Of a DNA stretch of 64,000 nucleotides, positions 10,690 through 12,113 are shown piece after piece. The stretch covers positions 2,046,001 through 2,110,000 of the forward strand of contig NZ_CP019327.1 in NCBI RefSeq assembly GCF_001971705.1, written 5' to 3'. The first letter of the stretch is position 1. The number at the start of each line of letters is the position of its first letter. Made by a program: the position numbers and the translations under genes. Source of the stretch: Natronorubrum daqingense. Lineage in GTDB: Archaea > Halobacteriota > Halobacteria > Halobacteriales > Natrialbaceae. The notes below the pieces were generated by a model that had not been told where the DNA came from, did not search any database, and worked only from the letters and a program-made list of their open reading frames with translations.

Positions 10690-11544
10690 ATGATCCCTCA
10701 CTCGAGACGAAACGTACTCAGAGCAGTCGGCGCCAGCGGCCTCGGTCTCGCCGGCGTCGCCGGAACCGCGAGTGCAACCTGCCAACCCGAACCTTCGGGA
10801 CAACGCTACGAGGTACAAGTGTTCGTCACCGACGCGCTCTACGAGCACTGCGCTCAACAGTACGGCGACGGATTCCGCGCGAGAGACCGGGCCGAGACCT
10901 GGATCGAAGGTGCCTTCGATCAGGTCAACCAGGAGGTCACGGTTCTCTCGACCGACGAAGTGATCCCCGCACCGGCCGAGATTATCCGCGGTTCGGAGAC
11001 GGTGTGCGTGCAAAACCCGTGTGGCTCGACGACGACGTGTTACCCGTCGGTGCTCCAGTGGTGGCGAGACTACGCGTGTCAACTCGAGTCGCCGCTGGCG
11101 GCCGATTCGAACGTGTTGCTCACGGCGGCGTTGAGCGCCGCTGGAAATCGACTGTTGAGCGGCGGTCGGGCCTACCGCGGCGGCAACATGGCGGTCGCGT
11201 ACACCGGTCGAGCGGCGGCGGACGCCGGTACGACGTACAGCGAGACCGTCTCCGCACCGAACACGGGCGCAAACGGCATGCACACGGTGCTTCACGAACT
11301 GGGTCACACCCTCCAGATGACGAACGGCGAGGCGGGGGCCGCACACGGGAACGACGGCTACGACGTGCACAACGTCGGCGGCGCGACGACCGCCTCGGGC
11401 GGGTTCGTTCCGACGACGGCGGTCAGTCCGCTCGCCGATCCGACCGCATCGACGAGCGAGTGTGGCTGTGGAGTCGGCGACCGCGACGCGTTCTTGATGC
11501 GCTGGACCGGTTGTAGCATCTCCTACTGGGGTGACGCACGATGA
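10690..11544 (+). CDS. Tat-exported, cysteine-rich HExxH metalloprotease-like protein
   Basis: A 284-residue secreted protein. The N-terminus has a Tat motif SRRNVLRAVG, a hydrophobic stretch and an Ala-rich cleavage region (GTASA before residue 30). The zinc motif HELGH in LHELGHTLQM lies near residue 202, with further His residues at AAH and YDVH as candidate third ligands, so a zincin peptidase is likely. Nine cysteines in the mature part (for example CVQNPC, CGCG and TGC) are unusual for a haloarchaeal protein and suggest disulfides. Specific peptidase family and substrate are not recognised. The stop overlaps the start of the next gene by ATGA. Confidence 0.72.
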   Translation: MIPHSRRNVLRAVGASGLGLAGVAGTASATCQPEPSGQRYEVQVFVTDALYEHCAQQYGDGFRARDRAETWIEGAFDQVNQEVTVLSTDEVIPAPAEIIRGSETVCVQNPCGSTTTCYPSVLQWWRDYACQLESPLAADSNVLLTAALSAAGNRLLSGGRAYRGGNMAVAYTGRAAADAGTTYSETVSAPNTGANGMHTVLHELGHTLQMTNGEAGAAHGNDGYDVHNVGGATTASGGFVPTTAVSPLADPTASTSECGCGVGDRDAFLMRWTGCSISYWGDAR

Positions 11545-12113
11545 ATCCAAATCCGATCGAACTCGAGGTGTTCAACAACACCGCTCACCCGCGTACGGTG
11601 ACGGTGTTACTGACACCCTACGACGAGGACGACTCCGTCGTCGACGAACGAACGGTTCGCGTTCCACGGATGCCCGAACCCCTGCAAAATGGGTCGGTCA
11701 ACGGAAGCGTTCCTCGGGACCAGCTCCCGAATCACCGCGTGATTCGCCTCGAGTCCGGCGAGAACGAGTCGCTCACCTGTCGCGTCGACGTGCCACTCGA
11801 GGACGGAACGGAGTCGCGTTCCGCATCGGTCTCAATCACGGTCGACCAAGAACCCGACGAGGCGACGACCGTCGTGTCGATCGAGGCGGAAGACAACGGC
11901 CTCGAGGCTGACGAAACCGACGGGGAGAACGTCGATATCGACCGTGGCAATCACGGGGGCGCTGAACCGGGGCGTGGCCGTTCGAAAGGCGACGGAAATC
12001 CCGGCAGGAATCGATCGAAACGGTCCACACGGACGGAAGCAAACGACGGCCGAAGCGACGACGAGGTCGTACTCGTGCTCGAGCGACTCGTCTACTGCGA
12101 TACGGCGGCGTAA
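11541..12113 (+). CDS. Small protein coupled to the metalloprotease; possible beta-sandwich domain with acidic tail
   Basis: A 190-residue protein whose ATG overlaps the protease stop (ATGA). Residues 5-120 alternate hydrophobic and polar residues in a beta-sandwich-like way (IELEVFNNTAHPRTVTVLLT, then CRVDVPLEDG), resembling small Ig-like or CARDB-like domains. The rest is low-complexity Asp/Gly/Arg. There is no signal peptide or Tat motif, so if it acts with the exported protease it either stays inside or rides along with it. An inhibitor, chaperone or substrate-like role would be inference only. Confidence 0.6.
   Translation: MNPNPIELEVFNNTAHPRTVTVLLTPYDEDDSVVDERTVRVPRMPEPLQNGSVNGSVPRDQLPNHRVIRLESGENESLTCRVDVPLEDGTESRSASVSITVDQEPDEATTVVSIEAEDNGLEADETDGENVDIDRGNHGGAEPGRGRSKGDGNPGRNRSKRSTRTEANDGRSDDEVVLVLERLVYCDTAA

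Follow-up and report, generated by a model that had tools for sequence, protein, structure and literature searches.

In the genome of the haloarchaeon Natronorubrum daqingense, a putative metalloprotease with a twin-arginine (Tat) signal and the small beta-rich protein encoded by the overlapping gene behind it probably form a two-gene Tat hitch-hiker export module, whose complex would cross with a single signal and whose signal would have moved, in this lineage, onto the protease. The locus lies in a window of 64,000 nucleotides, by which we mean the whole stretch of DNA that was analysed. Across the haloarchaea the two genes are found paired with one signal to each pair, and gene order, the type of carrier and the position of the signal all change.

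The upstream gene (positions 10690 to 11544, plus strand) encodes a protein of 284 amino acids with nine cysteines. Residues 1-29 (10690 to 10776, plus strand) form a Tat signal peptide (SRRNVLRAV...ASA), in which the SRRNVLRAV segment is followed by a hydrophobic stretch and then by an AxA at residues 27-29. The HELGH zinc/catalytic motif occupies residues 202-206 (11293 to 11307, plus strand), and its E203 and H206 are unchanged across 24 aligned relatives. These features were described correctly in the initial annotation of this locus. TatC genes are present in the window genome; haloarchaea in general make heavy use of the Tat system. The canonical HExxHxxGxxH motif is absent from the window protease, which reads HELGHTLQMTNG... 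at this place, and is present in G053/G213b and in the distant homologues described below. The putative third zinc ligand, His227 (11368 to 11370, plus strand), lies about 20 residues on; the alignment with relatives, in which this residue is nearly invariant, places it after an insertion relative to HExxHxxGxxH, in a region of low pLDDT. The Met of the Met-turn is likewise absent from the window genus, which has TTAV vs TPM(G) in most relatives, as judged from the alignment in a region where the model is of low confidence. The initial annotation had also taken the protein to represent a disulfide-rich type, and as a family trait this does not hold: only C258 and C275 are conserved in the protease family, the number nine is specific to the window genus and the relatives have between 2 and 11 cysteines.

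The protease is predicted to be a divergent, adamalysin-like metzincin. In the AF2 model the core (residues 35-210) mostly reaches a pLDDT of ~90, and VIA-align gave Z scores of 11-12.4 to adamalysins over ~170 residues, the best match being snake-venom adamalysins (Z 12.4). A profile of the family produced weak matches to ADAMTS and venom metalloproteinases in the PDB. Neither the window protease and its partner nor those paired relatives and carriers that were tested match a Pfam or NCBIfam model above the cut-off. At three of the related loci (L060, L061 and L064, from G059, G389 and G158) the first His of HExxH is replaced, giving EELGH, EEVGH and QEVGH, and the gene pair is intact. These three proteases may be altered or inactive, and proteolytic activity cannot be assumed in every member because of this replacement.

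The second gene (11541 to 12113, plus strand) encodes a signal-less partner of 190 amino acids in the position that is held by a Tat carrier in the relatives. Its ATG overlaps the TGA of the protease gene in an ATGA (11541 to 11544, plus strand). Both the overlap and the lack of an export signal had been pointed out before and are borne out here: the partner starts directly at the mature domain, and a wrong start that hides a signal was ruled out, since the frame upstream of the ATG is open for just two codons. Residues 1-115 (11541 to 11885, plus strand) are predicted to form a beta-sandwich and the remainder (11886 to 12110, plus strand) a disordered charged tail with an AF2 pLDDT under 50. 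In the partner model residues 11-40 have a pLDDT of ~75 and the rest is low; structural searches with this poor model returned only weak beta-sandwich matches.

A second species of the genus (G352) has intact copies of both genes, joined by an identical ATGA overlap; identity between the two species is 96% for the protease and 92% for the partner. The protease codons that differ comprise 19 synonymous and 10 non-synonymous changes. Within the partner, residues 1-112 show 5 synonymous and 4 non-synonymous changes and residues 113-170 show 2 and 9, respectively; at the protein level the N-terminal half thus changes slowly and the disordered tail fast. Within the window genus the protease family is present in just 2 of the 10 genomes, and the arrangement of a signal on the protease with a signal-less partner is confined to these two species. 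The signal switch is a single evolutionary event, seen in one lineage of two species.

The relatives were sought in ~440 haloarchaeal genomes, a class-wide sample together with five whole families. The distribution of the protease family among these genomes is patchy, and the gene is nearly always paired. At 22 other loci, from 18 lineages, a protease that begins directly at the catalytic domain, without a signal, is accompanied on the same strand by an adjacent Tat-signal gene, with a gap of 0-12 nt or an overlap. No paired relative bears a Tat signal on the protease. Most of the adjacent genes encode a type I carrier, a protein of 139-212 aa with a beta-rich 'VxNNTxxxxxVxV' domain. The type II carrier has a two-repeat domain and occurs in G053, G213 (a shorter copy), G516, G528 and the second pair of G122, and in G100 the adjacent gene encodes a 296-aa protein. 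No sequence similarity was detected between carrier types I and II. The carrier mostly lies downstream of the protease; the exceptions, with the carrier gene first, are G092/G034/G004 for type I and G516/G528 for type II. In G528 (L113, contig 3), where the type II Tat carrier is upstream, a gene 117 nt downstream of the protease encodes a Tat lipoprotein with a type I-like Ig-like domain. A nearly identical pair is found in two genomes, G188 (L066, contig 30) and G189 (L069, contig 6), with proteases that differ at the N-terminus. Scans of public genomes with the window protein found no relative, and a five-sequence profile found one, on a MAG contig. A phage or plasmid origin found no support: phages, plasmids and viral contigs gave no match, which is weak evidence as the searches reach only close relatives.

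The association of signal and partner can be expressed numerically. Tat signals were called by a motif-plus-hydrophobicity rule rather than by a dedicated signal predictor; under the strict form of this rule 17 of 19 tabulated partners, none of 19 proteases and 31 of 324 background genes from the same stretches were positive (P ~7e-16). The background rate of 9.6% errs on the high side, as the rule accepted every Met or Val within the first 60 residues as a start, and the pairing is significant nonetheless. One of the two partners missed by the rule is the carrier of G188, where a frameshift directly follows a signal that is itself normal (the twin gene in G189 is intact), and the other is that of G100, which has a short hydrophobic stretch. 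Strong matches to the type I carrier profile were found only beside the protease, with the exception of one orphan (L126:1571-2014) in the fragmentary MAG G527; this MAG also has a truncated protease without a carrier elsewhere (L128; contigs 62 and 51). With the type II profile a further pair came to light in G122; its protease, which had escaped the search with the protease profile, matches the family profile with an E-value of 4.5e-12. This second, very divergent protease with its type II carrier (L133:722-1938, contig 1) has HELSH and no Met-turn Met. The type II repeat also occurs in haloarchaeal lipoproteins away from the protease (L134:1318-1917, L137:1066-1713). Neither a signal nor an adjacent carrier was found for the proteases of G383, G373 and G522, which belong to one genus, and for two G527 MAG fragments.

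Conservation of the pair had been proposed as the first thing to survey, and in the family proper the genes are almost always paired. A wide occurrence of the protease without the partner had been named as a refutation; it applies only to a deep and distinct branch of single-gene homologues, where each has its own Tat signal. All 16 distant homologues checked carry an RRxFL-type Tat motif, and in none of the 16 does a Tat gene follow within 60 nt downstream. These homologues were rejected as evidence that the family can do without the partner, since they branch separately and have a Tat-type motif of their own. A tree of the proteases places the window lineage within the paired family and apart from the single-gene branch (100/98 support); the locus nearest to it by path is G122, which is of the carrier type. 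The family member in G182 (L073:4679-5698) bears a Tat signal of its own and, fused at the N-terminus, a CBM5/12-like domain; it has no carrier, and a truncated copy is present in G437 (L101). A distant metzincin of the single-gene kind, equipped with its own Tat signal, is also encoded in the window genome (G000), on another replicon or contig (L077, contig 2, 60023-60457), and this homologue (G000:C2:60023) matches Peptidase_M10 with an E-value of 9e-6.

The module that we propose would operate as follows. The protease and its small beta-rich partner, encoded by overlapping genes, would be made together, would fold and bind each other in the cytoplasm, and the whole complex would pass through Tat by means of a single twin-arginine signal. 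The partner would be the carrier in most relatives, where it bears the signal, and the protease the passenger; in the window genus the signal would have shifted onto the protease and the partner would have been reduced to its mature domain. There the partner would most likely be the passenger, or else a chaperone or inhibitor that is still needed before export. The initial annotation had envisaged a functional pair, with the partner as a possible chaperone, inhibitor or hitch-hiker on the protease. The paired loci strongly support a functional pair and hitch-hiking, but the roles suggested were the reverse of those in nearly all relatives, where the partner bears the signal. What we infer from the arrangement of genes and signals is the physical complex, the export of both proteins together and whatever part the partner plays as inhibitor or chaperone. 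Since the partner has been kept although the protease has a signal, it likely has a second role in the window, as chaperone, inhibitor or co-exported subunit.

The weakest link in this scheme is the descent of the window partner from a carrier, which its position, fold class, a short motif and a weak profile match tentatively suggest. The N-terminal VxNNTxxxxxVxV motif is common to the window partner and the type I carriers. By hhalign, residues 3-42 of the partner align weakly with the type I profile (probability 17%, P 0.0014), and a search of the window genome with that profile did not match the partner. The type II carrier was rejected as its origin, as hhalign gave no match. One could accordingly regard the partner in the window genus as an unrelated or decaying gene that stands by chance behind a protease independent of any carrier, and the weak homology to the carriers and the fast-changing disordered tail speak for this. 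We nevertheless judge it distinctly unlikely, for neither species shows damage to the gene, both have the ATGA overlap, its N-terminal half has accumulated few non-synonymous changes (4 vs 5 synonymous), and its position and VxNNT motif agree with the type I carriers.

Other readings concern the relatives as well. The partner might be mainly a dedicated inhibitor or folding chaperone, similar to a pro-domain acting in trans, which would render the protease harmless until it is exported, with the Tat signal of the relatives serving to secrete an independent inhibitor and the protease leaving the cell by other means. Such a role would agree with the need to control a protease that is folded in the cytoplasm, with the retention of the partner in the window genus despite the signal on the protease, and with the beta-sandwich fold class of the partner. 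However, no partner accompanies the homologues that bear the signal in cis (G182 and the 16 distant proteins), and inhibition is therefore not a general requirement. Without hitch-hiking, moreover, the proteases of 18 lineages, having no signal, would be left with no export route, and an inhibitory function would have to be assumed for each of the unrelated carrier types. On balance this explanation is unlikely, and carrying is a better-supported role for the partner than that of chaperone or inhibitor because cis-signal proteases without a partner exist, both in G182 and in the distant branch. It is very unlikely, in our estimation, that the protease of the relatives is cytoplasmic, that the adjacent Tat protein is secreted independently and is either its substrate or placed in the operon for regulation, and that the window lineage gained a signal later. 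Cytoplasmic forms may exist, as the proteases of G383, G373 and G522 with neither signal nor carrier indicate, yet the pairing survives exchange of both carrier type and gene order, each pair has exactly one signal, secreted forms with their own signal occur on both sides of the family (G182 and the distant homologues), and cysteines are conserved. The hitch-hiker module is the simplest explanation of the locus.

The paired family as a whole is somewhat better explained than not by haloarchaeal Tat hitch-hiker proteases with an exchangeable carrier, in which unrelated domains serve as carrier, in either gene order, and the signal can jump from carrier to cargo. If this were so, evolution would keep the interface of the pair and not the subunit that bears the signal. 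Signal-less secreted enzymes might then be widespread and escape surveys of archaeal secretomes that look for signal peptides; in haloarchaea, standard predictors would call such enzymes cytoplasmic. The short list of Tat hitch-hiker complexes would gain an archaeal member and a cargo that is a protease rather than a redox enzyme, and the loci would offer natural signal-swap, order-swap and carrier-swap variants for testing what a carrier requires. Tat hitch-hiking is itself already known. For the archaeal protease family and the signal that changes subunit we found no earlier report in the open-access literature; exchangeable carriers were not reported there either, and such absence is no proof.

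As to the cargo, the adamalysin/reprolysin metzincins (M12B; snake-venom proteases and ADAMs) share with the window protease the predicted fold and an HExxH with conserved Glu, and differ in that the third His of the latter is displaced by an insertion, the TPM of the Met-turn is TTA and no Pfam cut-off is reached. The distant single-gene haloarchaeal metzincins have a homologous catalytic half and the conserved cysteine pair; unlike the window protease they combine the canonical HExxHxxGxxH with a Tat-type motif of their own in 16 of 16 cases, and have no partner. As to the route, several bacterial systems are comparable. In HybO/HybC (HybOC) and PaoABC of E. coli each folded complex has one signal, and the subunit without a signal relies on the one that has it (PMC4273604). 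The present pairs would resemble them in both respects, but the E. coli complexes are cofactor-containing redox enzymes whose carrier is a fixed enzyme subunit. The gamma subunit of the FAD glucose dehydrogenase of Burkholderia is a small Tat-signal protein needed to fold and secrete a signal-less catalytic subunit (PMC6719666), a division of labour like that proposed here, although with a helical carrier and a flavoenzyme as cargo. Closest in layout is the bicistronic MelC1/MelC2 of Streptomyces, where a signal-less tyrosinase is exported via Tat on a small Tat-signal helper; some paralogous MelC1-type helpers have no Tat motif, and their enzyme remains inside (PMC2758597). The relatives' pairs likewise join a small Tat protein and a signal-less enzyme in a bicistron, but MelC1/MelC2 consists of a copper enzyme with a copper helper from one helper family, in bacteria, with no reported move of the signal to the enzyme, whereas the cargo here has a predicted metzincin fold in place of a tyrosinase. 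In common with the known Tat hitch-hikers, the haloarchaeal pairs have co-located and probably co-expressed genes (same strand, 0-12 nt apart or overlapping, at 22 loci) and a Tat signal on one subunit only, the subunits being reversed in the window and G352.
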